Part shown: positions 2,162 through 58,572 of the stretch, piece by piece
Position numbering within the stretch: position 1 is the stretch's first letter
Layout: each line of letters begins with the position of its first letter
Origin: Prauserella marina
GTDB taxonomy: Bacteria > Actinomycetota > Actinomycetes > Mycobacteriales > Pseudonocardiaceae
Length of the DNA: 64,000 bases
Assembly: GCF_002240355.1 (NCBI RefSeq)
Contig: NZ_CP016353.1
Coordinates: 620,001 to 684,000, forward strand
Direction: 5' to 3'
Notes under the pieces: generated by a model
Told to the model about the DNA's origin: nothing
Seen by the model: only the letters and a program-made list of their open reading frames with translations
Database searches by the model: none
Made by a program: the position numbers and the translations under genes

Positions 2162-2204
2162 CACCACACGCTCTGATCACCTGTCAGACCTACCCTGGAG
2201 CGCT

Positions 2205-2867
2205 ATGAGTTCGGACGAGCCGGCGGCGAAGGAGCCGCAGGAGTCCCCCGGAGAGCCGTCGGACAGCGGAGACGAGACCAGCACGGACGTCGCCGCCACC
2301 GAGGTCACCGAGGACGGCAGCACTGTTGCCGAGGAGACCACCAGTGGTGGCCCGCCGAAGTGGCTGACCTTCGGCAGCGCGGCGCTCGCGCTGGCCGCGC
2401 TGGTCACCGCGGTCTACTTCGGCATCTCGTGGTGGGTCACCTCCGGCAACGAGGCGAGCGGCGTCGCGGCCGAACGCGAGGACGTCGTGCGCTCGACGGG
2501 ATCGGCGGTGATCGCGCTCACCGAGCTGGACTACGAGGACCCCGACGCCTACTTCCAGCGGCAGCGCGACATCGCGACCGGCGACCTGCTGAATCAGATG
2601 AACGAGAACGCCGACCAGTACCGCAAGACCATCGCCGAGGCGAAAACCAAGGTCGTCTCGACGGTCCAGGACGTGGGCGTGCAGGAACTCGACGTCAGGG
2701 CCGGCAAGGCCAGCGTCCTCGCCACCGTTCGCACCGAGGTCGCCCAGGGGGATCAGAAAGGCACCAAGGTCTTGCGGCTCGAACTTGAGATGCTGCGCGT
2801 CGACGACAAGGGCACCTGGAAGCTGTCGAACATCGGCGAAGTGCCCATCGCCCAAGCGGGCCAGTAG
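2205..2867 (+). CDS. Mce-associated membrane protein (Mam)
   Basis: 220 aa. An acidic, disordered cytoplasmic N-terminus (1-50) is followed by one transmembrane segment (about 54-77) and an extracytoplasmic domain of about 140 aa with an NTF2/SnoaL-like layout (YFQRQRDIATGDLL, later LRLELEMLRVDDKGTWKLSNI). This is the architecture of the Mam proteins that follow mce genes and stabilise or help the importer (established for mycobacterial mce1/mce4). It lies 43 bp after mceF on the same strand, probably in the same operon. It is paralogous to the next gene. Confidence 0.8.
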   Translation: MSSDEPAAKEPQESPGEPSDSGDETSTDVAATEVTEDGSTVAEETTSGGPPKWLTFGSAALALAALVTAVYFGISWWVTSGNEASGVAAEREDVVRSTGSAVIALTELDYEDPDAYFQRQRDIATGDLLNQMNENADQYRKTIAEAKTKVVSTVQDVGVQELDVRAGKASVLATVRTEVAQGDQKGTKVLRLELEMLRVDDKGTWKLSNIGEVPIAQAGQ

Positions 2868-2888
2868 CCGGTCAGAACGGAGTCACCC

Positions 2889-7785: not shown

Positions 7786-11696
<3,911 letters not shown>

Positions 11697-38939: not shown

Positions 38940-39662
38940 TCAGTCGCCTCGGCGGATTGGGCCGAGGATCTGCTGTTCTTTTCCTGTTGTCACAAGGCGA
39001 AGCGTGCGCCACAGGTTTCGGCCCAAAGCAACGATCTGGTCGTCCTTCAACGTCATCAGTTGCCGCATCATCTGCGGCGGAAGCCGCCAGATCCTCGCCG
39101 CCAGTTCAGCCTGCCCCGCAGGCAAACGTTGCATCAGCACCAGATCCGCAGCGTTCGCGATCGCATCAGCCTGCGGATGCAGATACGGCAACACGTACAG
39201 CGTCGTCTGCCACGGTGATCTCGGAGGAAACAGATCCTGCGGCGTTGGTCCGCCATCATGCACCACAAGCAGAGGCGCATCCTCCGTTGCCCTGGGCAGT
39301 TCGACCGGAGACAACCGACGGATCTGCACCAAAGGGGACGGCCTTCCGACCGGTTGCCCGCTTGCCGCCCTCGACAAGACATGCCACGCCGTCGGCCGCC
39401 CCGTGGCCACGACCATCCATGCCCCCACGGCCATCGCCCGCATGGCGACCTGCCGCGCGAGGTACAACCCTCCGAGCACGACGATGCGGGTGGGCGTCGA
39501 CCGCAACACCGAAATGGTCAACGGCTCACCCTGCAAACCCGACCCCAACACGACCCCGCCGCGGTCACCCGATGGGCTGATCGCGTCCAACAGAGCCGGA
39601 TCAACCGTGAACTCTGGGGCGACCCCGGACGTTGTGTGCGTGCCGTGCACCCGTGAGGTCAC
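38940..39662 (-). CDS. P-loop-less FtsK/EccC-like protein of the ESX-4 locus
   Basis: 240 aa from GTG, overlapping the end of eccE by four bases, so translated with it. No signal peptide or membrane helix. The layout recalls an FtsK/EccC ATPase domain: GSGLQGEPLTISV corresponds to the strand before the P-loop, but at the Walker A place stands VVLGGLYLARQVAM, with no GxxxxGKS/T. APLLVVHDGG corresponds to a weak Walker B, and ADLVLMQRLPAGQAE to a C-terminal strand-helix unit. I infer a non-catalytic ATPase-like partner of the secretion channel. Function is unproven; an unrelated Rossmann-like protein is possible. Confidence 0.55.
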   Translation of the reverse strand: MTSRVHGTHTTSGVAPEFTVDPALLDAISPSGDRGGVVLGSGLQGEPLTISVLRSTPTRIVVLGGLYLARQVAMRAMAVGAWMVVATGRPTAWHVLSRAASGQPVGRPSPLVQIRRLSPVELPRATEDAPLLVVHDGGPTPQDLFPPRSPWQTTLYVLPYLHPQADAIANAADLVLMQRLPAGQAELAARIWRLPPQMMRQLMTLKDDQIVALGRNLWRTLRLVTTGKEQQILGPIRRGD

Positions 39663-41080
39663 GCCGAACCTCCCAACGGCAATGTCGCGGCGAACCCCGC
39701 CGCCTGCATGCCTTGTAGCGGCGTCAGCGCGACGCCCAAACGGTCGGATATGGCGGTCAAGCGACGGTCCGCGATGTCGAGTTCATGTGGAGTGCGTGCG
39801 CTGAGCCTGACAACTCCGCGCAACCCAATTCGTTGATCTTCCTCAGAAGGGGAGATCGACATCGCCACCGTTGCCGAAAGCGCCCTGACACTCGTCAACA
39901 CGTTCAGGCTGCTGGCGATCTCGCCTTTCGGCCATTCGGTGATTGCATAGCTGGCGTGACCGATTCCAGCCGCCGTGACGCCTGTCCACCGTTCCCGCAG
40001 GCCCACTCGGGAGGGCGAACCGGCGACCCGCGTCAGTTCGGCCGCAGAAGTACCGGCACGCAGCAGTTCGTCCGGTCCGAGCGGACGTGTCGCTACTCCA
40101 CGGGATTCGAGGGCATTGCGTACTCGCGACATGGCTCCCAGCAGAGCACGGTGCGCACCGACCACGCCGCCACCACGCTCGCGGACCGCCGCCGCGCAGC
40201 GGCGTGGATCAAGCTTGATGGTCACCCACGTGGTTCGACGGGCCGCCGCCGGAAGAGGCCCAAGCACCTCCAGGTAGGAACTGAGCGCGGGCGAGTCGGT
40301 CGGTAGTGCCGCACTTCCCGGGTAGCAGTGCCAGATCATTTGAATGGAATCCAGTACCACGCCGCGATCCTCAAGACATGGCGCCAAGGCCGAGAGTGGC
40401 AGACTCGGTGCTCCGCCTGCTTGGGTAACCAGCGCTGGCATCGGTTCGACCAGCAACACCGCCGTCCACGTTCCATCGTGCCAGGACAGACCTACCGTCT
40501 GGTGCTCGTGATCGATTCCCTGTGCCACCACGAGGTCCGGGACGACAAGCCGCAGCAGCCTGACCCGCGCGTCGTCAGGGCCGATGACGTCGTTGTCGCG
40601 GTCCTCCGACGCGAGCGTTTCCAGCTTTGCCGGCGCAGGTGGAGTAGCGACCCGCTGGTGAGGCCGGAACGTGTACCGCGCCGTCAGGCCGGCCCACTGC
40701 GTGAACCACTGCCCGCCCCAGCGGAGAAAGGCAAGGACCACCGCGGCGGCGGCAATACCGATCGACACATACAGCAGCGAGTTGTTGATCGAGAGGAGAA
40801 GGAGACCAATCGCGAGACCGACCTCCAGCACGACGACATTCGCCACGGGCAACGGCCCGAGTTGCGTCCCGGGCAACCGTCGCCGAGCCGGTGGCGCGAT
40901 CCGCGACGAGCCTCCGGACGGTGACCCACCGCCGGGGCGGAGTGGTCGGCTACCGGGTGGGCCGCCCGGACCTCTCGGGCTGTTCGGCCCGCCTCCGCGC
41001 GGCCCCTGAGGGTGTCGTGGCGGCACTGGAGGACGTCCGGGTGGAGGGCCCGTCGGACATGGAGGAGTGGTGACCGACAT
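39659..41080 (-). CDS. eccE: Type VII secretion protein EccE
   Basis: 473 aa from ATG 41080, with GGGGAAGAG upstream; the frame continues 61 codons further without a usable site. A Pro/Gly-rich cytoplasmic N-terminus (1-65) precedes two transmembrane helices (about 79-97 and 101-119). The cytoplasmic-side EccE domain (TVGLSWHDGTWTAVL, then LSARTPHELD and the closing GMQAAGFAATLPLGG) follows. EccE is a peripheral subunit of the ESX membrane complex. M. tuberculosis ESX-4 lacks it, but several other actinobacteria have it. Divergent from eccB. Confidence 0.85.
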   Translation of the reverse strand: MSVTTPPCPTGPPPGRPPVPPRHPQGPRGGGPNSPRGPGGPPGSRPLRPGGGSPSGGSSRIAPPARRRLPGTQLGPLPVANVVVLEVGLAIGLLLLSINNSLLYVSIGIAAAAVVLAFLRWGGQWFTQWAGLTARYTFRPHQRVATPPAPAKLETLASEDRDNDVIGPDDARVRLLRLVVPDLVVAQGIDHEHQTVGLSWHDGTWTAVLLVEPMPALVTQAGGAPSLPLSALAPCLEDRGVVLDSIQMIWHCYPGSAALPTDSPALSSYLEVLGPLPAAARRTTWVTIKLDPRRCAAAVRERGGGVVGAHRALLGAMSRVRNALESRGVATRPLGPDELLRAGTSAAELTRVAGSPSRVGLRERWTGVTAAGIGHASYAITEWPKGEIASSLNVLTSVRALSATVAMSISPSEEDQRIGLRGVVRLSARTPHELDIADRRLTAISDRLGVALTPLQGMQAAGFAATLPLGGSA

Positions 41081-41235
41081 TCGCTCGTTCTCTTCCCCTT
41101 GATTTGCAAACGACGCTGAAATCCGGTCCTGAGAGCTGATCATTGATCGGAGTTGCCGGAAACCCAACACCGGACCGGTTCCCGCGCGGTTATCCTGCGA
41201 AACCGTACCGCGACGGAGAGAGCTGTAGGTCGAGA

Positions 41236-42840
41236 ATGCCTTCAACACCGACAACGAAGTCACAAGTCCAGGCGTACCGGTTCGTATTGCGGCGCATGCA
41301 GTCCGCGCTTGTTCGCAAGGACGCGGTGATGTTGCACGACCCTATGCGAACGCATTCGAGGGCAACGATTGTCGGAGCTGTGCTGAGTGCACTGACCATG
41401 CTCGGTTTCGTCGTATTCGGTTTGTTCAAGCCCGCGCCAAAAGCACCCGATTCGGGGATTGTCATCGGCGAAGAGTCAGGGGCTATCTACGTTGTGTCGG
41501 GAAATCCCAAAAAGCTGGTCCCGACGTTCAACCTCGCTTCCGCCCGGCTGATGCTGATGGCGCAACAGCAGGCGGCCGGAGCCGGGGGGAACGTCGTCGA
41601 ACCGATCATCGTACCCGATGAACAGCTCAAGGACATTCCTCGCGGCCGCTTGCAGGGCATCCCGAATGGTCCGGAGTTGCTGCCGACGGAGGGTCAGCTC
41701 GCCTCTTCGCACTGGGCACTGTGTGATGAGACCAAGCTCGACATGTCGCTGCCTTCTGACGTCAGAAGCGAACAGGCGGAGACGGAGAGCACGGTCTTCG
41801 CGGGTCTCGGCAATCTCGGCCAGGAGATGTCACCGAGTGAGGCCCTGCTTGTCGCAGGTGACAACGGGAAAACCTTCTTGATCTATCGTCAGGGAACCGA
41901 TACCGGCGACGGCTACACGAACGCCGTAAGGGCCGAGGTCGACATCGCCGATAGTGCTGTGCGTAACGCGCTGAACCTCGATCTTCGTCAGACGCGGGAG
42001 ATCTCGCGGGGTCTGCTCAACGCTATTCCTGCTGTTGGCGAGGTGAAAGCACCGATTATTCAGGGTGCTGACCTTCCACCACAGGGATTCAATGTCGATG
42101 GGCTGACTGTGGGATCGGTATTCTCGACTCAGCGAACCGACAGTGTCGACTACTTCGTTGTGACCCGGTCCGGAGTTCAACTCGTTCCGCAAGCTGTCGC
42201 GGAACTGATCAGATACAAGAACACGACAACCGAAGGTGGCCAGACGCCGAGCGTGTCACCCGACACGCTGCAGAATGTGCCAGCAGTCGATCGCAATAGC
42301 GAAGACTTTCTTGACGTTGACCATTACCCCGGGGTTGTCCCGAGGGTTTTGCAGGCGGAGCAGCGGCCCAGTGCGTGCGTTGGCTGGAGTGTGGAGAGCG
42401 AGGGCGCCGATCGTGACGCGCGAACGTCGGTGTACGTCTTGGAGGAAAACCCGGGCCCCAAGAATGACCAGGGTGAACCTCAGGTGGTGAAGATCGGTTC
42501 GCCGAGCCCGGACGGGTGGAAGGTCGACAACTTCTACATGCGGCCCGGGTATGCGGCCGCGGTGAGGGCCGCCACGACCAAGGAAACGTTCGACCGGGGC
42601 AGCATCCAGCTCATATCCGATCGTGGTTTGCGATACGGAATACCTGATGCCGTTACCGCCGAGGGGCTCGGGCTTGGCGTGAAACTGCTGAAGCCCGCGC
42701 CGGAGTCGATCATCAAGCTGCTGCCGGTGGGGTCTTCGCTGAACACTCAGGATGTGCAGCGAACTTTCGATGCGGTGCCGGTGGATCCTTCCACTGGGTC
42801 GCTCGTCGCCGACGAGCAGGCATCGGCTGAGGGAAACTGA
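41236..42840 (+). CDS. eccB: Type VII secretion protein EccB
   Basis: 534 aa from ATG 41236 (PSTPTTKSQVQAYRFVLRR follows). A cytoplasmic N-terminal helix with MQSALVRKD precedes one transmembrane helix (about 43-64). The large periplasmic domain of repeats R1-R4 carries the conserved Cys pair (WALCDET and SACVGWS). EccB forms the periplasmic part of the ESX channel. TATCCT at 41191-41196 is a possible -10 in the divergent gap with eccE. Followed by a 400-bp convergent gap with three palindromic repeats. Confidence 0.92.
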   Translation: MPSTPTTKSQVQAYRFVLRRMQSALVRKDAVMLHDPMRTHSRATIVGAVLSALTMLGFVVFGLFKPAPKAPDSGIVIGEESGAIYVVSGNPKKLVPTFNLASARLMLMAQQQAAGAGGNVVEPIIVPDEQLKDIPRGRLQGIPNGPELLPTEGQLASSHWALCDETKLDMSLPSDVRSEQAETESTVFAGLGNLGQEMSPSEALLVAGDNGKTFLIYRQGTDTGDGYTNAVRAEVDIADSAVRNALNLDLRQTREISRGLLNAIPAVGEVKAPIIQGADLPPQGFNVDGLTVGSVFSTQRTDSVDYFVVTRSGVQLVPQAVAELIRYKNTTTEGGQTPSVSPDTLQNVPAVDRNSEDFLDVDHYPGVVPRVLQAEQRPSACVGWSVESEGADRDARTSVYVLEENPGPKNDQGEPQVVKIGSPSPDGWKVDNFYMRPGYAAAVRAATTKETFDRGSIQLISDRGLRYGIPDAVTAEGLGLGVKLLKPAPESIIKLLPVGSSLNTQDVQRTFDAVPVDPSTGSLVADEQASAEGN

Positions 42841-43241: not shown

Positions 43242-44792
43242 TCACTTGCTACGCGACAGAGGGTTTTGGGGGAGTTCGGTGCGGTTGCGGCGAATGGTGT
43301 GGGTGACGAACAAGGCAACCAACAGAGCCGCCAGCGCGCCACCGGAACCGGTCAACGCCACGATCATCGGCATGGAACCCCCGACGTTGCCCGGCGGCAT
43401 GTCCGAAGGCAACGCAACGGTCGAAGCGTCGGCGACCCCTTCCTCCTCCGGAACCATCGCGGTCAACGCGGCCATCGGATCGATCACGCCGTACCCCACG
43501 AAGTTGTCCCTACCGCCAGGGGCGGCGGGGTGTTGCGCGGTACTGGTAATCCGGTTCATCACCTCGCGAGCCGAAAGATCCGGGTACTTCGCGCGCACGA
43601 GCACGGCAAGTCCCGTGACGTACGGAGCGGCGAAACTCGTCCCCTGAATCGGTTTCGTCTCGCCGCCCTCCACAGTCATGTTCGCCAGCCCCGTCGATCC
43701 CTCGGCTGGATCCACCGAAATGATCGCCGTGCCGGGAGCCGCGACACTGATCCAGGGCCCACGCATGCTGAAGTCCGCGACTCCGCCACTCTCGTCGATC
43801 GCCGCGACGGACAATACGTCGTCGGCGAACCACGGCGGCGTCACGACTGATCGTGGCACGAACGCGTCCGATTGGTCGTTCTGCTGACAGTCCTCTCCGA
43901 TGTTGCCCGCCGCTGTCACCACCACGACGTCCTGATCGACCGCGTTCTTGACAGCGGCCTGCAATGCCTGCTCGTCGGGCGTGATTCCGCCGTTGCCGGG
44001 GCGGCAGTTATTGATCGAGATGTTCATGACGTCAACGCCCATCCGGGTGGCCTGCACGACAGCCTGCGCCAGCGTGTCGAGAGTCCCGGCCGAACCTTCC
44101 TTACCCTGGGTGCGGCCACCGTCCATTTGGGAAGTACCGGTCGGCTCGCCCGCACCATCCTGCCCCGGCTCGCCATCGCCCTGAGGCTTTTCCCGAGGTG
44201 GCTCGCCTTGAGATGATCGTTGTGTCGTACCGGAATCGTCTGGCTCGTAGTTTTGACTCGATTGTCGAATGGAGATGATCTCGGCGTCTGGCGCGACCCC
44301 CCTGAAGCCGATGTCGTGCGGTGTACTGGCCGCGATGATTCCCGCGACCTCGGTGCCGTGCCCGTCGCAGTCCTCAAGCCCGGCGCCGCCCTGCCCTTCG
44401 GCGACGTAGTCCGCGCCTGGCTTCACTCGCCCACCGAAGTAGGGGTGTCCCGCAGCGATCCCGGTGTCGATCACGGCCACCCTGAGGGGGTTTCCCTCGC
44501 CGTCCTTGCCCGCTGAGCCGACAGTGCCTTCCATGAGCTGGTGCACGTCGTCCAGCCGCAAGTACCGCTGACCCCACGGGGTATTGGGCAGATCGACATT
44601 CCGGTCGAGATCCCGCTTCACACATTCCACACTCTGCCGGTAATGCTGGTCCGGCCGCCCCGACGGTTCCGGCAGCATGCCGGGCACCACCGGTGGCGGT
44701 TCCGCATCATGGGCGAGTGCTGGAACGTGCGTGGTGCCAATCGTCAAAACACCGACCACCACGGTCAGCGCCAAGGCCGAAGCCCGTTTCAC
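43242..44792 (-). CDS. mycP: Type VII secretion mycosin (membrane-anchored subtilase)
   Basis: 516 aa. Signal peptide (about 1-27), subtilase domain with catalytic Asp109 (VIDTGIA), His145 (DGHGTEVAG) and Ser386 (GTSFAAP), and oxyanion Asn in TAAGN. A C-terminal transmembrane helix lies at about 470-495. A low-complexity insert (about 180-235, rich in Gly, Pro, Gln and Glu) corresponds to the variable loop of mycosins and is long here. The protease caps the ESX channel. Same strand as eccD, 37 bp behind it. Confidence 0.93.
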   Translation of the reverse strand: MKRASALALTVVVGVLTIGTTHVPALAHDAEPPPVVPGMLPEPSGRPDQHYRQSVECVKRDLDRNVDLPNTPWGQRYLRLDDVHQLMEGTVGSAGKDGEGNPLRVAVIDTGIAAGHPYFGGRVKPGADYVAEGQGGAGLEDCDGHGTEVAGIIAASTPHDIGFRGVAPDAEIISIRQSSQNYEPDDSGTTQRSSQGEPPREKPQGDGEPGQDGAGEPTGTSQMDGGRTQGKEGSAGTLDTLAQAVVQATRMGVDVMNISINNCRPGNGGITPDEQALQAAVKNAVDQDVVVVTAAGNIGEDCQQNDQSDAFVPRSVVTPPWFADDVLSVAAIDESGGVADFSMRGPWISVAAPGTAIISVDPAEGSTGLANMTVEGGETKPIQGTSFAAPYVTGLAVLVRAKYPDLSAREVMNRITSTAQHPAAPGGRDNFVGYGVIDPMAALTAMVPEEEGVADASTVALPSDMPPGNVGGSMPMIVALTGSGGALAALLVALFVTHTIRRNRTELPQNPLSRSK

Positions 44793-44829: not shown

Positions 44830-46224
44830 TCAGCCGATGTCGAGATGACGCAGTGTCGAGTAGAGGCCCATGACAGCGAGAGCCAGCGGGAGCACCGCAG
44901 CGATGCAGATTGCCTCGATGATGTCGACCGTGCGTCGCATGGGTGGCGAGAATCGCTGGCCCGGGAACACCACGCCGAGCACCAGAGCGCCGGCTGCCAG
45001 CAGGATGAGTGTGCCGAACACCCAGATCACCCGGCCCTGCGTGTCCTCGATCCACATCCAGCTCGCCAGAATGCCTGCGGCTGAAACAATTCCGGTGGTC
45101 AGTAGCGCGACCGCCTGGCTGCCATTGGCGTAGGTGCGGGCACGGAACAGTAATACCAGCGTCGCGACAACCCCGGTGATGATCCCGTAGACCTCGGGCG
45201 AGGACGACGTGACGATCGCCGAAATCGCCGTGACGAAACCACAGCCGATGAGCAGACCTGTCATGTAGTTGTGCGCGACACCGGTCTTGCGTTCGATGAC
45301 GGAATAGTCCGGGTATCCATCGTCTTCCTTGAGTTCGGCGGCGGTGCCCGGAACGCGTGGCAGCGGCAACTTCGCCAGCCAGATCGCCGCCCTCGGCAGT
45401 ATCGAGATCCCAGCGAGCGCCACAGCGGCCGTTCCCGCGGCGATGCCGGGCGCGGGGTGTGCGATCAGTGTGCCGACGAGAAACGCCAGTAATCCGAAGA
45501 CACCGGCTGTCGCGGCCGCGATGAAAATCGTGATCCCGGTACCCATCACGACGATGCACACAGTGGCGACAACGACGACAAGCGTGCTCGCCAGCAGCAG
45601 ATTCGCCCGCAGCGATACACCCGGCACGATGTGGAACCCACTGACGAAGGTCAGTGGAAGTCCTCCCGTCGCGGCGATCAGGACACCTGTCTGCTCGGCT
45701 CCATACCCTTTGGCGATGGTCGCCCCGACGGCGATGCACGCGATCGCCGCCACACCGGCGGCAATCGCAGATGGGACTGCGTTGCCGCCGAACAGCGGGC
45801 CGCCGAAGAACAATGCGAGTGCGGAAGCAAACAATGCAAGCCCGCCCGCGATGTTCCCTATCCGTTGAGCCGTTTCTTTCGTCCAGGGACGAAAGCTGTC
45901 TGACTCGGCCTCGGCGATCGCGTCGACGACGTCATCGAACAGCGGTGGCGGCGGATTTTCGTTGCGTTTGCGAAGCTGGAGCAATTCACCGTCGACAATG
46001 CCCAGTGATGCGAGTGTCCTGCTCGGATCGAGCGGTGAATCACCGAGTTTGGCGAGCGCCCAGCCGCCGTGCCGGGCTCCGCCATCAGCCGTGACCTCTT
46101 TGGCCATTTCCAGCAGCATGGGCAGAAGGTCGGCCACGGCAACTTCAGCGGGAAGCGCGACGTCGATCCGGGTTCTTGGCGCGACTACCGTGACCCTGCT
46201 GAAAACCGTCGTGCCCGTTGCCAC
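44830..46224 (-). CDS. eccD: Type VII secretion protein EccD
   Basis: 464 aa from GTG 46224. N-terminal ubiquitin-like domain (about 1-90, FSRVTVVAPRTRIDVALPAE to LLQLRKR), then about eleven transmembrane helices with few charges. EccD dimers form the main membrane vestibule of the ESX complex. Co-oriented with mycP, divergent from eccC, the same pattern as mycobacterial eccD4-mycP4. Confidence 0.92.
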   Translation of the reverse strand: MATGTTVFSRVTVVAPRTRIDVALPAEVAVADLLPMLLEMAKEVTADGGARHGGWALAKLGDSPLDPSRTLASLGIVDGELLQLRKRNENPPPPLFDDVVDAIAEAESDSFRPWTKETAQRIGNIAGGLALFASALALFFGGPLFGGNAVPSAIAAGVAAIACIAVGATIAKGYGAEQTGVLIAATGGLPLTFVSGFHIVPGVSLRANLLLASTLVVVVATVCIVVMGTGITIFIAAATAGVFGLLAFLVGTLIAHPAPGIAAGTAAVALAGISILPRAAIWLAKLPLPRVPGTAAELKEDDGYPDYSVIERKTGVAHNYMTGLLIGCGFVTAISAIVTSSSPEVYGIITGVVATLVLLFRARTYANGSQAVALLTTGIVSAAGILASWMWIEDTQGRVIWVFGTLILLAAGALVLGVVFPGQRFSPPMRRTVDIIEAICIAAVLPLALAVMGLYSTLRHLDIG

Positions 46225-46574: not shown

Positions 46575-49500
46575 GTGAGCACGTTGCAGTTCAAACGCTC
46601 GCCACGGCTAGCGGCTCCCCGGCCACCAGGAGGCGAGGTTCACCTCGAACCTCCGCCGGAAGTGCCACGGACGATTCCCGGAAACGTCATCATGAAGCTG
46701 ATGCCGGTCGTGATGGTCGTCGCGATGCTCGGCATGATCACGTTCATGTTCACCTCGGGCGGTGCGATGGCACGCAGCCCGTTCTTCTTGATGATGCCGC
46801 TCATGATGATGATGTCCATGGTCGGCATGTTCGCCGGCGGCGGACGTGGTGGTCAGCAGAAGAAGGCGGAGATGAACGAGGATCGCAAGGACTACCTGCG
46901 GTATCTCGGGCAGATGCGCGACAGGGCAAGAGAAGCGATGATCGACCAGCGAGCGGCGCTGGAATGGGTGCATCCCGATCCGCAGAGTTTGTGGTCGCTC
47001 GCCACGAGCAGGCGCATGTGGGAACGGCGACAGGCCGACCAGGATTTTCTGCACCTCAGGGTGGGCCGCAGCTCGCACCGGCTGGCGACAAGGCTCGTTC
47101 CGCCGCAGACCGGGCCCGTTGACGAACTGGAGCCGATCGCCACTCTCGCGCTGCGCAGGTTCGTCCGCGCGCATTCGATCGTTCCCGATCTCCCCACGCA
47201 GATCGCCCTCCGCGGGTTCGCCGCGGTCGAGATGCAGGGCGACAAGGACCTGACGCGTGGGCTTACCAGGGCGCTGATTTCGCAGCTTGTCACCTTCCAC
47301 AGTCCGGACGACGTCATTATCGGGATCGCCACGGCGGGCAGGGCGAAAACGGAGTGGGAGTGGGCCAAATGGTTGCCACACGTGCAACATCCGGCACTGG
47401 CGGACGGCATCGGACAGTTGCGCATGATGACGGGCTCGCTAGCCCAGCTTGAACAGTGGCTTGACGACGACTTGCGCGACCGCCAGCGGTTCTCGCGCAA
47501 CGCGACACCTCCGCCGGATCAGCCCCACGTCGTGATCATCATCGACGACGCCGAAGTCACGGGCGAAGAGCAGATCCTTCTTGAGGAAGGATTGGTCGGC
47601 GTTACCCTCATCGATCTCTCCGATTCCATCGGAAATCTCGCGACGCGACGTGGGCTCCGGCTGGTCGTGGAGGAGCAGCGGCTCGGGGCCCGTAGCGCCA
47701 GCGGAATCGAATGGTTCGGCCGCCCCGATTCACTCAGCCTCGCCGAGACAGAAGCACTGGCACGCAAGGTTTCCCCATACCGGATGGGTTCCGCCGAGGC
47801 GGACGAGGGCGAGGAACAGCCCTTGCTGACGAATCCTTCGCTGATGGAACTGCTCGGAATTCCCGGTGACCCCATGACTTTCGACGTACAGGAAGCATGG
47901 CGGCCGCGACCGGTAAGGGACCGGTACCGCGTCCCGTTCGGCGTGGGCGAGCACGGTCAGCCGGTCGAGCTCGACATCAAGGAAGCCGCGATGGAGGGCA
48001 TGGGGCCGCATGGTTTGTGCATCGGTGCCACGGGCTCAGGTAAATCCGAGTTTCTGCGCACTCTCGTGCTCGGGATGCTCGCCACGCACTCGTCCACGAC
48101 GTTGAACTTCGTGCTCGTCGACTTCAAGGGCGGCGCGACTTTCATGGGACTGGACACCGCGCCACACGTATCCGCGGTCATCACCAACCTCGCCCACGAG
48201 GTCACGCTGGTCGACCGGATGAAGGACGCGCTGGCCGGTGAGATGAACCGGCGGCAGGAGGCCCTCAAAAACGGCGGCAACTTCAAGAACGTGTGGGAGT
48301 ACGAGAAGGCGCGGGAGAATGGGGCGGACCTCGACCCACTGCCCGCATTGTTCATCGTCGTGGACGAGTTCTCCGAGCTGTTGTCGGCGAAGCCGGACTT
48401 CATCGATCTGTTCGTCGCCATCGGCAGGCTGGGCAGGTCGCTGCAGATGCACATGCTGCTGGCCTCGCAGCGCCTTGAAGAAGGCAAGCTACGTGGTCTT
48501 GATTCGCATCTTTCCTATCGCATCGGCCTCAAGACCTTCTCCGCAGCGGAGTCGAGGGCCGCCATCGGTGTTCCCGACGCGTTCGAGCTTCCTTCCGTGC
48601 CTGGAGGGGGATACCTCAAGTACGACACATCCACGCTGGTCAGGTTCAAGGCGTCATATGTATCCGGCCCCTACCGGCCGGCCGGGATCAAGGCCGCGGC
48701 ACCGGGCGCGAAGGTGGTTCGCGCGGACAAGCGTCCCCAACTGTTCGTTCCCGATGTCGTCGAGCCGCCGAGGGAACGCGAACCGGTGGCCGAAATCGTC
48801 GAGCAGCCCAAGCAAGAATTCGAGGAGGCCGTCGAACCCAGTGAACTGGATGTCCTGGTCTCCCGGCTGATGGGCCAGGGCCCTCCCGCGCACGAGGTGT
48901 GGCTGGCTCCACTGAACGCACCGAACTCCCTCGATACGTTACTGCCGAATCTCAATCCCACCGTAGACCGGGGTCTTTCGCCAATCGGATTCTTCGGCAA
49001 CGGCCGCCTTCAGGTCCCGCTCGGCATCGTCGACCGGCCTTACGAGCAGCGACGCGACCCACTGTGGGCCGATTTCTCCGGTGGTGCCGGACACGGTGTG
49101 ATCGTCGGCGGGCCGCAGTCGGGCAAGTCGACGTTGCTGCGCACACTGATCATGTCGACGGCACTCACTCACACGCCGGAGGAAGCGCAGTTCTACTGCA
49201 TAGACCTCGGTGGTGGCACACTCGCGGCGCTCGACGAGTTGCCGCATGTAGGCGGGGTTGCCGTCGCGCGAAGAGAACCGGACAAGGCTCGCCGGATCGT
49301 CGCCGAACTGACGACGCTGGTCAATGAGCGGGAAGCCAGGTTCGGTGCGATGCGGGTCGACTCGATGAACGACTTCCGCAATCGCAAACACCGAGGTGAC
49401 ATCACTGCCGAGCACGATCCTTTCGGCGACGCGTTCCTGATCGTCGACGGCTGGAGGGCACTGCGAGACGACTTCGACGAGCTGGAACCGCAGATCACCA

Positions 49501-50585
49501 AGCTGGCGGTCCAGGGATTGACCTATGGCGTGCACGTGGTCATCTCGTCCAACCGCTGGGCGGATCTTCGCCCCGCCATCAGGGACATGATCGGAACCCG
49601 GTTCGAACTGCGACTCGGCGACCCCAGCGCATCCGACATCGACCGCAGGGTCGCCGTCAACGTTCCAGCCGGCCGCCCCGGGCGTGGGTTGACCAGGGAC
49701 AAGCTGCACTTCCTCGGCGGTCTTCCACGCATCGATGGTTCCAGTGACCATCAGGACTTGGGCGGCGGTGTCGCCGATGCCGTCGTCAAGATCAAGTCGG
49801 CATGGCAGGGACGGCCCGCACCCCAGGTTCGGCTACTGCCCGAGCTGATCGTCTACGACGAACTACTCGCGCAAGACCCGAAACGCGACACCAGAATGGT
49901 GCCGATCGGGGTCAACGAAGACGAACTCGCTCCCCTCTACCTCGACTTCGACGCCGACCCGCACTTCCTTGCCTACGCCGACGGCGAATCGGGCAAAACC
50001 AACCTGCTGCGGCAGATCGTGCGCGGTATCACGGCTCGCTACACGAAGAAGGAAGCCGTCATCATCCTCGTCGATTACCGGCGGACGATGCTCGGCTTCA
50101 TCGAGGGTGACCAGTTGCTCGGCTACGCGGTGTCGGCGAATCAGCTCGACGGCATGGTGAAGGACGTCGCCGGATCCATGGCCAAACGCTTGCCCGGCCC
50201 CGATGTCACGCCGCAACAGCTCAAGGACCGTTCGTGGTGGAACGGGCCAGAGCTCTTCTTCGTGGTCGACGACTACGACCTCGTCGCGAGCTCGTCCAAC
50301 AACCCACTGCGTCCGCTGTCGGAATACCTGGCTCAGGCAAAGGATGTCGGCCTGCACCTGGTTGTGGCTCGGCGGACCGGCGGTGCGGCCAGGAGCGGCA
50401 TGGATCCGATCATCGGGAAGCTCAAGGAACTCGCGATGCCGGGGTTGATCATGAACGGCTCAAAAGACGAGGGAAACCTGCTCGGTAACGTGAAAGCCAG
50501 TCCGATGCCACCCGGACGGGGCACGCTTGTCAGCCGGAAGGCTGGTAAGCAGCTGATACAGGTCTCGTGGATCCAGCCGGAGTAG
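46575..50585 (+). CDS. eccC: Type VII secretion FtsK/SpoIIIE motor EccC (fused CaCb)
   Basis: 1336 aa. Two transmembrane helices (about 37-60 and 68-88, Met-rich) precede three FtsK-type ATPase domains. Walker A1 GATGSGKSE is near 484 with Walker B VVDEFSEL near 594. A2 GGPQSGKST is near 844 with a changed B site (IVDGWRA). A3 ADGESGKTN is near 1134 with VVDDYDL. Only domain 1 keeps the full catalytic set, the pattern established for EccC, where domains 2 and 3 regulate and bind the substrate signal. It powers export of Esx pairs. It is one chain here, not split as in ESX-1. Confidence 0.95.
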   Translation: MSTLQFKRSPRLAAPRPPGGEVHLEPPPEVPRTIPGNVIMKLMPVVMVVAMLGMITFMFTSGGAMARSPFFLMMPLMMMMSMVGMFAGGGRGGQQKKAEMNEDRKDYLRYLGQMRDRAREAMIDQRAALEWVHPDPQSLWSLATSRRMWERRQADQDFLHLRVGRSSHRLATRLVPPQTGPVDELEPIATLALRRFVRAHSIVPDLPTQIALRGFAAVEMQGDKDLTRGLTRALISQLVTFHSPDDVIIGIATAGRAKTEWEWAKWLPHVQHPALADGIGQLRMMTGSLAQLEQWLDDDLRDRQRFSRNATPPPDQPHVVIIIDDAEVTGEEQILLEEGLVGVTLIDLSDSIGNLATRRGLRLVVEEQRLGARSASGIEWFGRPDSLSLAETEALARKVSPYRMGSAEADEGEEQPLLTNPSLMELLGIPGDPMTFDVQEAWRPRPVRDRYRVPFGVGEHGQPVELDIKEAAMEGMGPHGLCIGATGSGKSEFLRTLVLGMLATHSSTTLNFVLVDFKGGATFMGLDTAPHVSAVITNLAHEVTLVDRMKDALAGEMNRRQEALKNGGNFKNVWEYEKARENGADLDPLPALFIVVDEFSELLSAKPDFIDLFVAIGRLGRSLQMHMLLASQRLEEGKLRGLDSHLSYRIGLKTFSAAESRAAIGVPDAFELPSVPGGGYLKYDTSTLVRFKASYVSGPYRPAGIKAAAPGAKVVRADKRPQLFVPDVVEPPREREPVAEIVEQPKQEFEEAVEPSELDVLVSRLMGQGPPAHEVWLAPLNAPNSLDTLLPNLNPTVDRGLSPIGFFGNGRLQVPLGIVDRPYEQRRDPLWADFSGGAGHGVIVGGPQSGKSTLLRTLIMSTALTHTPEEAQFYCIDLGGGTLAALDELPHVGGVAVARREPDKARRIVAELTTLVNEREARFGAMRVDSMNDFRNRKHRGDITAEHDPFGDAFLIVDGWRALRDDFDELEPQITKLAVQGLTYGVHVVISSNRWADLRPAIRDMIGTRFELRLGDPSASDIDRRVAVNVPAGRPGRGLTRDKLHFLGGLPRIDGSSDHQDLGGGVADAVVKIKSAWQGRPAPQVRLLPELIVYDELLAQDPKRDTRMVPIGVNEDELAPLYLDFDADPHFLAYADGESGKTNLLRQIVRGITARYTKKEAVIILVDYRRTMLGFIEGDQLLGYAVSANQLDGMVKDVAGSMAKRLPGPDVTPQQLKDRSWWNGPELFFVVDDYDLVASSSNNPLRPLSEYLAQAKDVGLHLVVARRTGGAARSGMDPIIGKLKELAMPGLIMNGSKDEGNLLGNVKASPMPPGRGTLVSRKAGKQLIQVSWIQPE

Positions 50586-50670: not shown

Positions 50671-52632
50671 GTGACCTTGCGGGTGGCGGTGGACTTCGGG
50701 ACATCGAGCACCTGTGTCGTTGCTTCGATGAACGGGCGCGAGCCGCAGGTCGTGGTGATCGATGGCCAGCCGCTGATGTCGTCTGCCGTGTACGCCGCGC
50801 CAGATGGGACATTGTTCGTCGGGCAGGAGGCGGAGCGGCAGGCTGCCGTGGATCCTTCTCGCTACGAACCCAATCCGAAGCGGCGCATCGACGAGGGTGA
50901 GCTGCTGCTCGGTGACACGGTGTTGCGGGTCATCGACGTTATGCATGCGGTGCTGGAGCGTGCGGTCACCGAGGCGCGCAGGCTCGCGGCGGGCGCGGAG
51001 GTGCGCCTGCTCGTGCTGACCCATCCCGCGGACTGGGGCGCTGTCCGCACCAGGCTCCTCAGGCAGGCGGCAGGCCAGCTTGCCTACGAGGTGGCGCTGG
51101 TTCCGGAACCGGTCGCCGCCGCCGTGTTCCATGCCGCGACCTTCGCACCCGCTGAAGTGAACCAGGAGCGGACCGTCGAGTTCAGCGGGCGGCCGGGCGA
51201 TACCCTCGCCGTGCTCGACCTCGGCGGGGGGACCATCGACGTGAGCGTCGTACGACGTTCCGCGGGCGAAATGCGCACCGGGTTCGAGGTGCTTGCCACC
51301 AGAGGAGACCCGAGTTTCGGCGGGGCCGATATCGATCAGGCACTCCTGGAACACGTGGGTTCCCTGGTGTCGGACGCCGATACCACGGCGTGGGAGCAGC
51401 TCGTCCAAGGCAGGGAACTCGCCGACCGGCGACGCAGGCGGGTGCTGCGCCAGGACATCCGCGGGGCGAAGGAGACTCTGTCGAGACACGTCTACACCGA
51501 CGTGCCCATGCCGCCGCCATTCGCCGACGCCCACTTGACGAGGGAAGACCTTGAACGCCTCGTCGCGATCCCGCTCGGGCGAGCCGTTCAACTGGCGAGC
51601 GCCACGATCGACTCGGCGGGGCTACGGCCGCAACAGCTCACCGCGATCTTCCTCGTCGGAGGGTCGAGCCGGATCCCGATGGTTTCGAGATTGGTCCACG
51701 AGCGAGTCGGCGTCGTCCCGACCACCCTTGACCAGCCGGAAACCGTGGTCGCGCGAGGCGCCTTGCGGGCAGTGCAGGTCATTCCCGACCGCACGGGCGC
51801 GCTGCCCGGCGCGACGCCGAGAGTGACGGGCCTACAGGGAGACCAGCGCACGAAGGTCGTGACCAGACCGGCGGCAACACCTCCGCTACCCAGGCAACCG
51901 GTGTCCGGGGGTTCACCACCCAGGCCGGCGACGAGGCCCGGTGCGCTCCCCGCGCGCCCTGTTCAGCAAGGACAAAGTCAGCAGGGGCAACAGGTCCGGC
52001 AGGGGCAGCCTTCTCCGCCGCGGGGCCAGCGTGCGCCGGGGCCGCCGGGCGCTCCCGGCGGTGCGACGCCCACATCGCGGGGATGGTCGCGGCAACACAA
52101 GCTCATCGCCCTGGTCGTTCTTGGCGTGGTTCTGCTGGCCGCGATCGTGACTACGCTGCTGCTCGTACTTCAGGACGACGAACCCGCACCGCCCGCGGGG
52201 AGAACATTCGCGCAGTACTCCTACAAGTTCGTCGCACCTCCCGGCTGGGCGCAGACCGGCGACAACGTCGCCGACCGGCAGGTGGTCGTCAAGCCTGACG
52301 ACGCGCAGTCTCCGGCTGACGACGACCTCGTCGTCGTACAGGAATTCGTGCTGGCCTACGACGCGGGGGTCGATCGTGAGCGATTGGTCGATGCGTTGCG
52401 GGACGAGGTCGCCAAGACCCCTGAGCGGTTCAGTGGCTTCGAGGACCAGTACGCGTACGCGGGCAAGCAAACGATTCACTACGTGGAAGCCAAACCCGCG
52501 GCGAACGTCGACTGGTACGTGTTCGCGGAGGGGACCGCTCAGGTGAGTATCGGTTGTCAGGAAGCGTCGAAACCGGAGCGGGTACAAGCCGCATGCAACC
52601 AGATTGTCGGAACGCTGGAGTTCACGAATTGA
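50671..52632 (+). CDS. Hsp70/actin-like ATPase fused to type VII secretion-associated domain (Rv3446c-like)
   Basis: 653 aa from GTG 50671. Residues 1-360 are an ASKHA-fold nucleotide-binding domain: phosphate-1 VAVDFGTSSTCV, phosphate-2 AVLDLGGGTIDVSVV and adenosine FLVGGSSRIPMV. There is no Hsp70 peptide-binding domain; a Pro/Gln linker (about 385-470) leads to a transmembrane helix (about 477-500) and an extracytoplasmic domain of about 145 aa (YSYKFVAPPGWAQTG to CNQIVGTLEFTN) of the Rv3446c C-terminal family. Position between eccC and the esx pair matches ESX-4. It may couple cytoplasmic nucleotide state to the channel; unproven. Confidence 0.85.
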   Translation: MTLRVAVDFGTSSTCVVASMNGREPQVVVIDGQPLMSSAVYAAPDGTLFVGQEAERQAAVDPSRYEPNPKRRIDEGELLLGDTVLRVIDVMHAVLERAVTEARRLAAGAEVRLLVLTHPADWGAVRTRLLRQAAGQLAYEVALVPEPVAAAVFHAATFAPAEVNQERTVEFSGRPGDTLAVLDLGGGTIDVSVVRRSAGEMRTGFEVLATRGDPSFGGADIDQALLEHVGSLVSDADTTAWEQLVQGRELADRRRRRVLRQDIRGAKETLSRHVYTDVPMPPPFADAHLTREDLERLVAIPLGRAVQLASATIDSAGLRPQQLTAIFLVGGSSRIPMVSRLVHERVGVVPTTLDQPETVVARGALRAVQVIPDRTGALPGATPRVTGLQGDQRTKVVTRPAATPPLPRQPVSGGSPPRPATRPGALPARPVQQGQSQQGQQVRQGQPSPPRGQRAPGPPGAPGGATPTSRGWSRQHKLIALVVLGVVLLAAIVTTLLLVLQDDEPAPPAGRTFAQYSYKFVAPPGWAQTGDNVADRQVVVKPDDAQSPADDDLVVVQEFVLAYDAGVDRERLVDALRDEVAKTPERFSGFEDQYAYAGKQTIHYVEAKPAANVDWYVFAEGTAQVSIGCQEASKPERVQAACNQIVGTLEFTN

Positions 52633-53007: not shown

Positions 53008-53325
53008 ATGGCAGGCGGTTTTACCGGGACACCGGAACAGTTTCAGCAGGCATACCTGGATGTCGACGAAATCAAAGGGCTCATGGTGTCGAACATGAGT
53101 ACTCTCCGCGATCGCATCGAGGCCACACAGGCGGGCTGGCAGGGCGATGCCGCGAAGGCATTCAAGAATGTCATGGATTCGTTCGACGAGCGGAACCAGA
53201 AACTGAACGACACTCTGGGGAACATCGCTGAACTGCTCCAGCAATCCGGTGTTGCCTACGCGCAGGCGGAACACGAGCAGAACGCCGCGGTCAGCAACAT
53301 CAGCAGCACTCTCGAAGGCCTGTGA
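53008..53325 (+). CDS. WXG100 protein (EsxU/EsxT-like, first of pair)
   Basis: 105 aa helical hairpin. Turn motif AGWQGDAA (about 48-55). C-terminal YAQAE fits the YxxxD/E export signal. No signal peptide. Probable ESX-4 substrate that dimerises with the next gene product. N-terminus starts MAGGFTGTPEQF. It lies after the Rv3446c-like gene, as esxU does in mycobacteria. Confidence 0.9.
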   Translation: MAGGFTGTPEQFQQAYLDVDEIKGLMVSNMSTLRDRIEATQAGWQGDAAKAFKNVMDSFDERNQKLNDTLGNIAELLQQSGVAYAQAEHEQNAAVSNISSTLEGL

Positions 53326-53380: not shown

Positions 53381-53668
53381 GTGCCTGACGGCATCGTCGT
53401 TGATTACCAGACCATCCACACCGCCGCCGATGACTGCAAGGTGACGGGCGGCGAGCTCAGAGGGCTGTTCGAAGACCTCAAAGGACGCCTCGCCCCGCTC
53501 GTCGACAGCTGGCAGGGTGAGGCACAAGGAGCTTGGCAGGCCGTGCAGGCCGAGTGGGACACCAATCTGGAAGATCTCGAAGCGGTGCTCGCCAAGATCG
53601 CGACCGCGCTGCCTCAGATCGCGGACGGCTACCAGTCCACGGACAAGGCCGTGCAGGGGTTCTTCTGA
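53381..53668 (+). CDS. WXG100 protein (EsxU/EsxT-like, second of pair)
   Basis: 95 aa from GTG 53381 with AGGAGG at 53371-53376. The frame runs upstream, but this start has the ribosome site. WQGEAQGAW is the turn; C-terminal YQSTD also fits YxxxD/E. Partner of the preceding gene, 55 bp away. Followed by a strong terminator. Confidence 0.9.
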   Translation: MPDGIVVDYQTIHTAADDCKVTGGELRGLFEDLKGRLAPLVDSWQGEAQGAWQAVQAEWDTNLEDLEAVLAKIATALPQIADGYQSTDKAVQGFF

Positions 53669-55537: not shown

Positions 55538-55986
55538 TTGCCCACGTACAGCCCCAAGCCCGGCGATATCACCCGTGCATGGCACGTGATCGATGCCGAG
55601 GATGTCGTGCTCGGCCGGCTCGCGACCGAGGTCGCTACGCTGCTGCGCGGCAAGCACAAGCCCACCTACGCCCCCCACGTGGACACCGGTGACTTCGTCA
55701 TCATCGTCAACGCCGAGAAGGTGGCGCTCACCGGTAACAAGCGCGAGCAGAAGTTCGCGTACCGGCACAGCGGTTACCCGGGTGGCCTGCGTAAGCGCTC
55801 CTTTGGCGAACTGCTCGACACCAGGCCTGAGCGCCTGGTCGAGAAGGTCGTCAAGGGCATGCTTCCCAAGAACAAGCTCGGCCGCGCCCAGGCGAAGAAG
55901 CTCAAGGTCTACGCCGGCCCCGAGCACCCGCACGCCGCGCAGAAGCCACAGCAGCGCGAGATCACCAAGATCGCTCAGGTGACCCA

Positions 55987-55990
<4 letters not shown>
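55538..55990 (+). CDS. rplM: 50S ribosomal protein L13
   Basis: 150 aa from TTG 55538, with GACGAGG upstream. [19 protein letters not shown] start (read in part), and [17 protein letters not shown]. An early assembly protein of the 50S. TAGTAT at 55400-55405 is a possible -10 without a clear -35. Overlaps rpsI by four bases. Confidence 0.97.
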
Positions 55991-56475
<485 letters not shown>

Positions 56476-56491
56476 CGCGCAGCTCGCAACG

Positions 56492-56533
56492 CACAGAAGC
56501 GCCCTTCCGATATTACGGATGGGCGCTTCTGTG
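56492..56533 (+). terminator. Terminator after rpsI
   Basis: CACAGAAGCGCCC (56492-56504) pairs perfectly with GGGCGCTTCTGTG (56521-56533); inside, TCCG and CGGA extend the stem around ATATTA. It starts 16 bp after the rpsI stop. No U run. Confidence 0.75.
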
Positions 56534-56550
56534 CTCTCCGGCCCCGGAAC

Positions 56551-56583
56551 CCCCGAACCGCGTTTAGCCGGCTAAACGCGCCG
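56551..56583. repeat. Palindromic repeat unit 15
   Basis: CCCCGAACCGCGTTTAGC-CG-GCTAAACGCGCCG. It directly follows the rpsI terminator and precedes glmM. Confidence 0.75.
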
Positions 56584-56710
56584 CGTGCGTACCGGGCTGG
56601 GGCGTCATCGTCGTGGCCGCTAGGTTGTTCGGGTCGCTCACGCACAAGCAGCGGTGGGACGTACACGGTGCCGCACCGGTCCAACCCACCCGAACACGGA
56701 GGTCGAGGAT

Positions 56711-58045
56711 ATGGCCCGCCTTTTCGGCACCGATGGAGTGCGCGGCCTCGCCAACGCCGAACTCACCCCGGAGTTGGCGATGTCCGTGGCGGCCAGTGCC
56801 GCCAGAGTGCTCGCGGCACACGACCGCTCGCACCGGCCGGTGGCCATCGTCGGCCGCGACCCGAGGGCCAGCGGCGAGATGCTCGAAGCCGCCGTTGTCG
56901 CCGGACTCGCCTCCGCAGGTGCTGATGTGCTGCGAGTGGGTGTGTTGCCGACACCGGGCGTCGCTCACCTCGTCGGTGACCTTTCGGCCGATCTCGGCGT
57001 CATGATCTCCGCCTCACACAACCCCATGCCGGACAACGGGATCAAATTGTTCGGAGAGGGTGGTCACAAACTGCCCGACGGGATCGAGGACGAGATCGAG
57101 GCCGGTCTCGGTTCCGAGGCGCTCAGGCCGACGGGCGCGCAGATCGGCCGCGTATCCGACGTCGACGACGCGCTCGACCGCTACATCGCGCACCTCATGA
57201 CCGCGACGCCGCACCCACTCGCGGGGCTCAGGGTCGTCGTCGACTGCGCGAACGGTGCCGCTTCCGTCGCCGCGCCCGAGGCATATCGCAAGGCGGGTGC
57301 CGACGTGATCGCCCTGCACGCGGAACCGGACGGCGTGAACATCAATGACGGCTGTGGCTCGACGCACCCCGAGCTGCTGAGTGCCGCCGTGGTCGAGCAC
57401 GGTGCCGACCTCGGCATCGCGCACGACGGCGACGCCGACCGGTGTCTCGCCATTGACTCGTCGGGGAACCTCGTCGACGGTGACCAGATCATGGCCGTGC
57501 TGGCGGTCGCCATGGCCGACACCGGTGAACTCGTGGAGCGCACCCTCGTCGCGACCGTGATGAGCAACCTCGGCCTGCACCTCGCCATCAAGGAACACGG
57601 CATGACGTTGCGGACCACCGCCGTTGGTGACCGCTACGTGCTTGAGGAATTGCGCTCCGGTGGTTTCTCGCTCGGCGGCGAACAGTCGGGACACGTCGTT
57701 TTTCCCGCGCACGCCACCACCGGCGACGGACTGCTCACCGCGCTGCGATTGATGAGCAGGGTCGCCGAGACCGGACGGTCACTGGCCGAACTCGCGGGTG
57801 TCATGCGCAGGCTGCCCCAGGTGCTCATCAACGTGCGGGTCGCCGACAAGAACGCGGTCGCGGCCTCGCCAGCGGTGAAGGAGGCCGTCGACGCGGTGAC
57901 TGCCGAACTGGGCGCCGAAGGGCGTGTCCTGTTGCGGCCGTCGGGAACAGAGCAACTGGTGCGCGTCATGGTCGAGGCGACGGCTGAGGACATCGCCCAG
58001 GCCGCGGCGGACCGGCTCGCCGGCGTGGTCGCCACTGTCTCCTGA
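56711..58045 (+). CDS. glmM: Phosphoglucosamine mutase
   Basis: 444 aa from ATG 56711 ([11 protein letters not shown] follows), with GGAGG upstream. The frame is open to 56654, but only this start fits the family. Phosphoserine Ser102 is in [12 protein letters not shown] and the metal loop is DGDADR. Converts glucosamine-6-phosphate to glucosamine-1-phosphate for cell wall and mycothiol precursors. glmS, the preceding step, lies 5 kb downstream. Confidence 0.97.
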
Positions 58046-58203: not shown

Positions 58204-58572
58204 GTGACCACGGTACCCAGGGGCAACGGCGACGATTCGTCCAGTTCGGGTGTCAGCGCGCCGGACGGCTACACGGCCGACACCGGAAGCATGGTGAGCC
58301 AGGCGCAAGCCATCAGCGACGCGGTGGAAGAGGCGCAGCCGGAGGCCGAGAACCTTGGAGCGACCGAGGTCGCCGGGGCGGACTTCGGAATCGCCCACGC
58401 CGAGCGGGCCGCCGGCTACACGGCCGCGGTGCGGACTCTCGGCGAAGGCGCGATGGCCATGTGCGGCTCGTTGCTGGCTCTCGCGGGCTCGATCGGCGGC
58501 GCCGGTGAGCAGTACGCGTCCGCCGAAGCCGAACAGCAGTCCTCGGTGAACCAGTCGGGGAGCGGGCTGTGA
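58204..58572 (+). CDS. EspC-like small type VII substrate candidate
   Basis: 122 aa from GTG 58204 with GGGGGAG upstream. No signal peptide. Gly/Ser-rich start, helical middle (HAERAAGYTAAVRTLGEGAM) and C-terminal YASAE, a YxxxE export-type motif, followed by a Gln/Ser tail. It resembles the EspC/DUF2580-type partners of ESX systems. It overlaps the next gene by four bases. In M. tuberculosis two uncharacterised genes (Rv3440c, Rv3439c) follow glmM in a like small-large order; orthology is my inference. Confidence 0.65.
   Translation: MTTVPRGNGDDSSSSGVSAPDGYTADTGSMVSQAQAISDAVEEAQPEAENLGATEVAGADFGIAHAERAAGYTAAVRTLGEGAMAMCGSLLALAGSIGGAGEQYASAEAEQQSSVNQSGSGL

Follow-up and report, generated by a model that had tools for sequence, protein, structure and literature searches.

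A membrane-anchored protein with an Hsp70-type nucleotide-binding domain and an Rv3446c-type C-terminal domain in the ESX-4-type locus of Prauserella marina

Introduction

A gene of Prauserella marina that lies directly behind eccC in an ESX-4-type secretion locus encodes a protein of 653 residues, in which an Hsp70-type nucleotide-binding domain (NBD) is joined through a predicted membrane helix to a domain of the Rv3446c family. What could an Hsp70-type ATP site be doing in a subunit of a type VII secretion system (T7SS), and does the subunit need it? The window analysed here is a stretch of 64,000 nucleotides (contig NZ_CP016353.1, positions 620,001 to 684,000, forward strand), and all coordinates without another source refer to it.

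PMC11217815 calls ESX-4 the most ancestral of the ESX systems. The gene rv3446c is counted among the genes of the ancestral ESX-4 and listed as an ESX-4 component (PMC4791881), while PMC11791044 draws MAB_3755c of M. abscessus with "unknown function". The subunit is therefore known but unexplained as far as these sources go. In the open-access literature searched, no ESX component is named as having an Hsp70 domain, and no biochemical or genetic evidence on the subunit was found.

The ESX-4-type locus

The genes around the 653-residue protein were assigned by profile matches as follows.

39659..41263, minus strand: EccE (173.9 bits, cut-off 108)
41143..42840, plus strand: EccB (329.6 bits)
43242..44792, minus strand: mycosin MycP (329.4 bits)
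44830..46224, minus strand: EccD (305.7 bits)
46575..50585, plus strand: EccC, the membrane ATPase, directly upstream of the 653-residue gene (1040.1 bits for EccCa, 855.7 bits for EccCb)
50671..52632, plus strand: membrane-anchored Hsp70-NBD and Rv3446c-type ESX-4 protein, 653 residues (open reading frame, profile and PDB matches)
53008..53325, plus strand: WXG100 protein (53.2 bits, cut-off 44.85)
53381..53668, plus strand: second WXG100 protein, start codon inferred (70.8 bits)
55538..58045, plus strand: rplM, rpsI and glmM, markers of the chromosomal site (profile matches)

An ESX-4-type locus is recognized by eccB, eccC, eccD, mycP and a WXG100 pair beside rplM-rpsI-glmM, and all of these are found here together with eccE, so that the membership proposed by an earlier sequence-only reading of this DNA was borne out by the profile matches. 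The ESX-4 locus of M. tuberculosis (Rv3441c-Rv3450c) presumably has the same gene order. In M. abscessus, esxU-esxT sit between MAB_3755c and the L13 gene (PMC9401124). The frame of 653 codons starts with GTG, has GGGAG just 5' of this codon and begins 85 bases after the eccC stop. Its C-terminal domain scores above the curated cut-off of TIGR03931 (T7SS_Rv3446c) with 73.1 bits against 47.6 over residues 504-651, and the gene occupies the slot between eccC and the esx pair, the two features that define the Rv3446c family. Orthology to the Rv3446c gene rests on this domain, the neighbours and the chromosomal site.

Two further observations concern secretion in this genome. At least four EccC matches occur, on contig C1 at 233496, 666644, 4469945 and 4909821, which points to several ESX systems. 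A protein of 746 residues encoded 3' of glmM (58569-60809, plus strand) contains an internal WXG100-like stretch (Pfam, 27.6 bits, residues 159-236) and is possibly a large T7SS substrate.

Domain architecture of the protein

The protein is divided into four parts.

50671..51786, plus strand: Hsp70-type NBD, residues about 1-372, motifs intact (Pfam, PDB, alignment)
51787..52080, plus strand: Pro/Gln/Gly-rich linker, residues 373-470, mean pairwise identity 0.279 (composition, alignment)
52111..52167, plus strand: predicted transmembrane helix, residues 481-499 (hydropathy; a full-length structure model puts the helix at 475-500)
52186..52629, plus strand: TIGR03931 domain, residues 506-653, presumably extracytoplasmic, with a predicted PsbP/Mog1/LpqN-like fold

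The HSP70 family PF00012 matches with 105.1 bits (E 3.9e-30, best stretch 108-365), and the top PDB match is the DnaK NBD in 1dkg_D, which we take to be from E. coli (E 8e-26, residues 5-365). The phosphate-1, phosphate-2 and adenosine motifs together with a Lys/Glu pair characterize the NBD of the Hsp70 superfamily, and all are present, the motifs as DFGTSST (8-14), DLGGGTID (183-190) and LVGGSSRIP (328-336) and the pair as K70 and E146. In an alignment with the DnaK of the same genome they fall on its Lys and Glu, which we take to be K70 and E171 in E. coli numbering. The sequence-only reading had claimed intact ATP-site motifs and had asked for comparison with DnaK; the claim is supported. 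Judged by these residues, the NBD very probably binds ATP.

The domain belongs to the Hsp70 superfamily and not to DnaK itself, because the NCBIfam DnaK model scores 103.3 bits against a cut-off of 822.55 and HscA likewise stays far below its cut-off. No substrate-binding domain was matched in Pfam or NCBIfam; the HSP70 match stops at residue 365, and linker and transmembrane helix follow. With these scores and no substrate-binding domain match, the protein was ruled out as a DnaK or HscA chaperone. Its NBD shares the motifs of these chaperones and is 30% identical to that of the DnaK encoded in this genome, but the protein is membrane-anchored. The DnaK stretch RIVNEP, in which NEP takes part in contact with J-proteins, reads ALVPEP in the window protein, with PEP in place of NEP.

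The linker consists of 21% Pro and 13% Gln, and the segment 481-499 (Kyte-Doolittle mean 3.06) is the sole hydrophobic one at the threshold used. Profile matches and hydropathy thus confirm the earlier statement that the peptide-binding domain is replaced by a Pro/Gln linker, a membrane helix and an Rv3446c-type domain. Basic residues before the helix and acidic residues after it suggest that the N-terminus would lie inside and the C-terminus outside the cell. Such a topology makes cytoplasm-to-outside signalling, as proposed from the sequence, a fair but hypothetical reading, and its direction is likewise hypothetical.

The C-terminal domain

A full-length structure model, built with nine close relatives, reached a mean pLDDT of 43.2 and was poor in the NBD; only the model of the C-terminal domain was therefore used. 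Modelled alone from nine sequences, this domain has a mean pLDDT of 85.7. The best structural match is BT_1490 (3hlz, Z 13.7), followed by PsbP (Z about 10-11), LpqN (Z 10.5 over 135 residues, rmsd 3.5), MTC28 (10.1), Apa (8.8) and Mog1 (8.3), whereas the PknH ectodomain (7.5) lies in a range that the tool calls common. The Foldseek TM-scores are mostly 0.5-0.6. A PsbP/Mog1/LpqN-like fold is predicted from this model: at Z 8-11, some 127-139 of its residues align with LpqN, PsbP and Mog1, but the sequence identity to them is 6-16%. A PDB sequence search with the domain gave nothing related; both of its hits (E 1.3 and 1.5) were weak and fell on an unrelated protein. The type VI immunity protein Tsi3 (Z 10.4) and the Eag-type chaperones EagT6 (8.9) and SciW (8.8) score in the same range as LpqN, so the fold by itself tells no function.

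Distribution of the gene

Eight relatives, from three Prauserella, two Saccharomonospora and two Amycolatopsis genomes and one metagenome-assembled genome (MAG), are 65-75% identical over the best segment. In the family of the window, Pseudonocardiaceae (f1), TIGR03931 was matched in 75 of 80 sampled genomes (74 above the cut-off) and EccC in all 80. Above the cut-off were 15 of 396 genomes in a sample of the phylum, all from the order of the window, and 56 of 200 in a sample of the order, all from f1 and a related family, f2. As the model that bears the name of Rv3446c gives its highest scores in f2, this family is taken to be Mycobacteriaceae as GTDB defines it, and Rv3446c itself is presumably one of its members.

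The NBD match and the C-terminal domain share one open reading frame in 69 of the 72 Pseudonocardiaceae loci fetched, so their fusion is not a chance event. Two of the other three (L172 and L177) lack an NBD match. The third (L114) is split over two overlapping plus-strand frames, the NBD at 1681-3690 and the helix with the C-terminal domain at 3039-3641, through a frameshift or a sequencing error.

The gene neighbourhood is also kept. Among 110 loci with a C-terminal-domain frame, a count that includes three duplicates and one locus (L188) that is probably no orthologue, the 3' end of EccC lies on the same strand within the fetched stretch in 98, counted with no limit on distance (about 1.45 kb in the odd cases L119 and L120), and a WXG100 match follows downstream in 100. 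The EccC end is absent from the fetched stretch in 10 of 76 Pseudonocardiaceae loci; one of these stretches of sequence, L132, runs into a contig end, and in the genome G407 EccC was located about 6.2 kb away. L188 was doubted as an orthologue, having 27.4 bits, no NBD and no EccC. Six other candidates (L053, L054 and L184-L187) were rejected, with TIGR03931 below the cut-off and no C-terminal-domain frame above 25 bits.

The family genomes without a TIGR03931 match are G456, G466, G443, G397 and G432, the first four of which were inspected. In G456 a contig end cuts the locus where the gene begins, and in G397 EccC is in two frames. G466 (L201) keeps an ESX-4-like EccC with a WXG100 gene directly after it, and the subunit gene was not found; G443 (L200) also keeps such an EccC, with no TIGR03931 match within 2.3 kb after it. 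Whole-gene absence beside a retained EccC occurs, and since both genomes keep EccC without the gene, the subunit is dispensable there.

Conservation of the ATP site

Frames with an NBD match above 150 bits were aligned from the window, the family loci and L031-L038 (seven named Pseudonocardiaceae and one MAG), so that the NBDs are nearly all from this family. The 79 frames became 76 after removal of three duplicates; L075 and G406, both cut by contig ends, were left out of the counts. In 74 of the 76 NBDs none of the six key ATP-site positions is lost, the split L114 being counted among the intact ones. D8, G10, R71, P119, E146, D183, G185, G330, G331 and R334 are identical throughout, and T11, K70, T188, D190 and K267 are kept in 74. 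Two positions are less fixed: G186 of phosphate-2 is replaced by Ala in 7 of 76 NBDs, and S332 by Thr in 4 and by Leu in 2. L157 and L163, the two sequences outside the 74, come from one genus and have lost T11, K70, T188 and D190.

Over the 65 sequences that carry both domains in one frame, the mean pairwise identity is 0.726 for the NBD, 0.408 for the C-terminal domain, 0.297 for the transmembrane segment and 0.279 for the linker. Where the NBD persists, no other part of the protein is under as much constraint. A hydrophobic segment lies 125-330 residues from the C-terminal end in 111 of 111 C-terminal-domain frames (permissive threshold 1.3).

Decay of the NBD in related lineages

At an E value of 1 or below, none of the 29 C-terminal-domain frames of f2 matches the NBD, and the same holds for L172 and L177, which belong to another genus than L157 and L163. 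The NBD is decayed or undetectable in 29 of 29 f2 orthologues and in these four Pseudonocardiaceae loci, while the transmembrane helix and the outer domain stay. The sequence-only reading would have fallen had ATP-site residues been missing in most orthologues: its claim stands for the aligned NBDs and fails for f2 and this branch of the window's family. ATP use can therefore not be universal for the subunit, and given the absence of any match in f2, ATP is not needed there.

For 20 of the 29 f2 loci, the N-terminal part was compared with the NBD profile by profile-profile alignment, with groups and cuts set by eye. The probability was 86.1% for two Nocardia-like sequences, 92.9% for six others and 49.5% for twelve mycobacteria-like ones, the last match being weak (E 1.7e-4 over 66 columns). 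A region THPADWG appears in both the 86.1% and the 49.5% alignment, and the 92.9% group overlaps the same columns. L172 and L177 reached 41.7% over a later stretch, and reversed-sequence controls gave 0.1-0.2%. These N-terminal parts are read as decay of an ancestral NBD, the mycobacteria-like remnant being the least certain. It is quite improbable that they are unrelated sequence and that the NBD was gained in Pseudonocardiaceae. A gain would fit the weak mycobacteria-like match and the lack of any direct NBD match in f2 frames, but the two other f2 groups match well above their reversed controls and L157 and L163 are visible intermediates inside Pseudonocardiaceae.

A tree built from 94 EccC C-terminal parts puts the intact loci into one group, the four decayed loci of Pseudonocardiaceae into a second and f2 into a third. 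The tree was made by a quick method with a midpoint root, L172 and L177 are on long branches, and all four decayed loci have an unusual composition. If the families are true sisters, two separate losses of the NBD are needed, and the EccC tree alone does not force this. The motif GK[ST] in the third ATPase domain of EccC is kept in the four decayed loci and, by eye, also in 28 f2 rows. A correlated loss of NBD and EccC motif was accordingly rejected, and because the motif stays where the NBD decayed, contact between NBD and EccC finds no support in co-loss. The EccC C-terminal part has 415-432 aligned residues in L157, L163, L172 and L177 against 447-450 in 12 intact rows and 398 to 458 in f2; a subtler co-change may exist.

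Other membrane-anchored Hsp70-type proteins

Besides the window gene, the genome has four Hsp70-type matches. One (L101) is DnaK, and in another (L105) the motifs are degraded. The third (L103; G000:C1:5212855-5213652, frame 628-3381, minus strand) has an NBD, a Pro/Gln linker and a single hydrophobic segment, followed by an outer domain of another type, and its NBD is 50% identical to that of the window protein, closer than DnaK. The fourth (L102; G000:C1:4436754-4437575, frame 1261-3114, plus strand) combines an NBD and a hydrophobic segment with a domain of the galactose-binding-like family PF18559, which gives it the look of a receptor for carbohydrates. Both lie about 32 kb or more from the four EccC matches of the genome. 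As the same genome encodes these two further proteins, the layout of NBD, membrane helix and outer domain is wider than ESX.

A similar protein, WP_229568810.1 ("Hsp70 family protein"), is encoded at 7986-9764 of the record L198 from plasmid pRDE02 of Rhodococcus sp. RDE2, which is typed as conjugative; no ESX gene is annotated near it on this plasmid. The window protein matched 174 plasmid records, 38 of them Rhodococcus, in none of which did a single place cover 80% or more of the protein. The three proteins share with the window protein the Hsp70 NBD, the linker, the one hydrophobic segment and a further C-terminal domain, but their outer domains differ from that of ESX-4, and L103 and L102 do not stand beside EccC matches. 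A limited search of open-access texts found no description of such a group. Anchoring an Hsp70 NBD in the membrane and exchanging the outer domain appears to be a design that recurs in actinobacteria, and the ESX-4 protein is one instance of it.

Comparison with known secretion components

With the Rv3446c family, including MAB_3755c, the window protein shares the slot between eccC and the esx genes, the transmembrane segment and a C-terminal domain above the curated cut-off. In contrast to the 29 f2 orthologues, which have at most a remnant, it has a whole Hsp70 NBD. EssB/YukC of T7SSb consists of a cytoplasmic pseudokinase, one transmembrane helix and an outer domain, and serves as an interaction hub without ATP binding (PMC9600267). 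Compared by layout, both proteins have a cytoplasmic nucleotide-fold domain, a single transmembrane helix and an outer domain, but the fold is a dead kinase in EssB/YukC and an Hsp70 fold with intact motifs in the window protein, for which Hsp70 was matched and no protein kinase family was listed. TscD of T7SSc is, according to PMC11217815, a membrane protein whose N-terminal cytoplasmic enzyme domain has a conserved Ser/Thr kinase active site. It resembles the window protein in being a membrane component with a conserved N-terminal active site on the cytoplasmic side, and differs in its kinase fold and in belonging to Bacillota.

Proposed role and alternatives

The window protein is read here, with a probability of about one half, as an accessory ESX-4 membrane subunit with an ATP-switched NBD and an envelope-facing domain, the ATP step being dispensable in some lineages. 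In the Pseudonocardiaceae form of this Rv3446c-type subunit, the cytoplasmic NBD would bind ATP, and its opening and closing with ATP and ADP would make a switched contact with EccC or the WXG100 pair. The switch may change the position of linker, transmembrane helix and outer domain, and the last could meet envelope material or the outward face of the EccB/EccE/MycP assembly. In layout the subunit corresponds to EssB/YukC. With the NBD decayed in f2 and one Pseudonocardiaceae branch, ATP regulation would be an extra or ancestral layer, and this decay suggests that helix and outer domain have anchoring or scaffolding as their enduring task. A more specific version is put forward tentatively, at somewhat worse than even odds: the ESX-4 of Pseudonocardiaceae would have a second, Hsp70-type ATP switch that couples ATP state to the envelope domain, is a pseudo-ATPase in relatives and corresponds to EssB/YukC.

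The cytoplasmic domain of GspL in type II secretion is an actin-fold scaffold, and on this model the NBD could bind nucleotide for stability only and sit on EccC as a static adaptor with no driving ATP cycle. The persistence of helix and C-terminal domain in f2, L157, L163, L172 and L177, where the NBD is decayed or undetectable, agrees with such a role, as does EssB/YukC, a dead kinase that needs no ATP for its role (PMC9600267). However, T11, K70, T188 and D190 in 74 of 76 NBDs, in the most conserved domain of the protein, fit ATP turnover better than mere folding, and we consider a static adaptor unlikely, though less so than the readings that follow. PknH relays outer sensing inward through a kinase. 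A receptor of the same kind, with an outer domain that senses lipid, sugar or peptide and an NBD that relays the signal inward, might share the operon and have ESX-4 as one target. Its outer fold is near that of LpqN and, more weakly, of the PknH ectodomain, and the two other proteins of this layout in the genome lie away from EccC. Against this, the slot between eccC and the esx genes is kept across two families, and the genome has one TIGR03931 match despite at least four EccC matches, which makes a receptor of this sort rather improbable. The Hsp70 homology and the frequent WXG100 gene downstream could also suggest that the protein acts through NBD and linker as a lidless Hsp70 on WXG100 pairs awaiting export; but with no substrate-binding domain a peptide-holding role is unlikely, the linker is poorly conserved and variable in length, and this idea is given very little weight.

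Significance

Rv3446c-type proteins are a retained part of ESX-4, and the window protein, read as an ATP-switched accessory subunit, offers a first handle on their function. If the ancestor of the family was indeed a membrane-anchored Hsp70-type ATPase, this would supply a testable hypothesis in terms of ATP binding, contact with EccC or WXG100 proteins and a conformational switch, and relatives with a kept or a decayed ATP site would constitute a natural experiment. It would also mean that one kind of membrane subunit has been fitted with different nucleotide folds, a kinase or an Hsp70, in different T7SS lineages.
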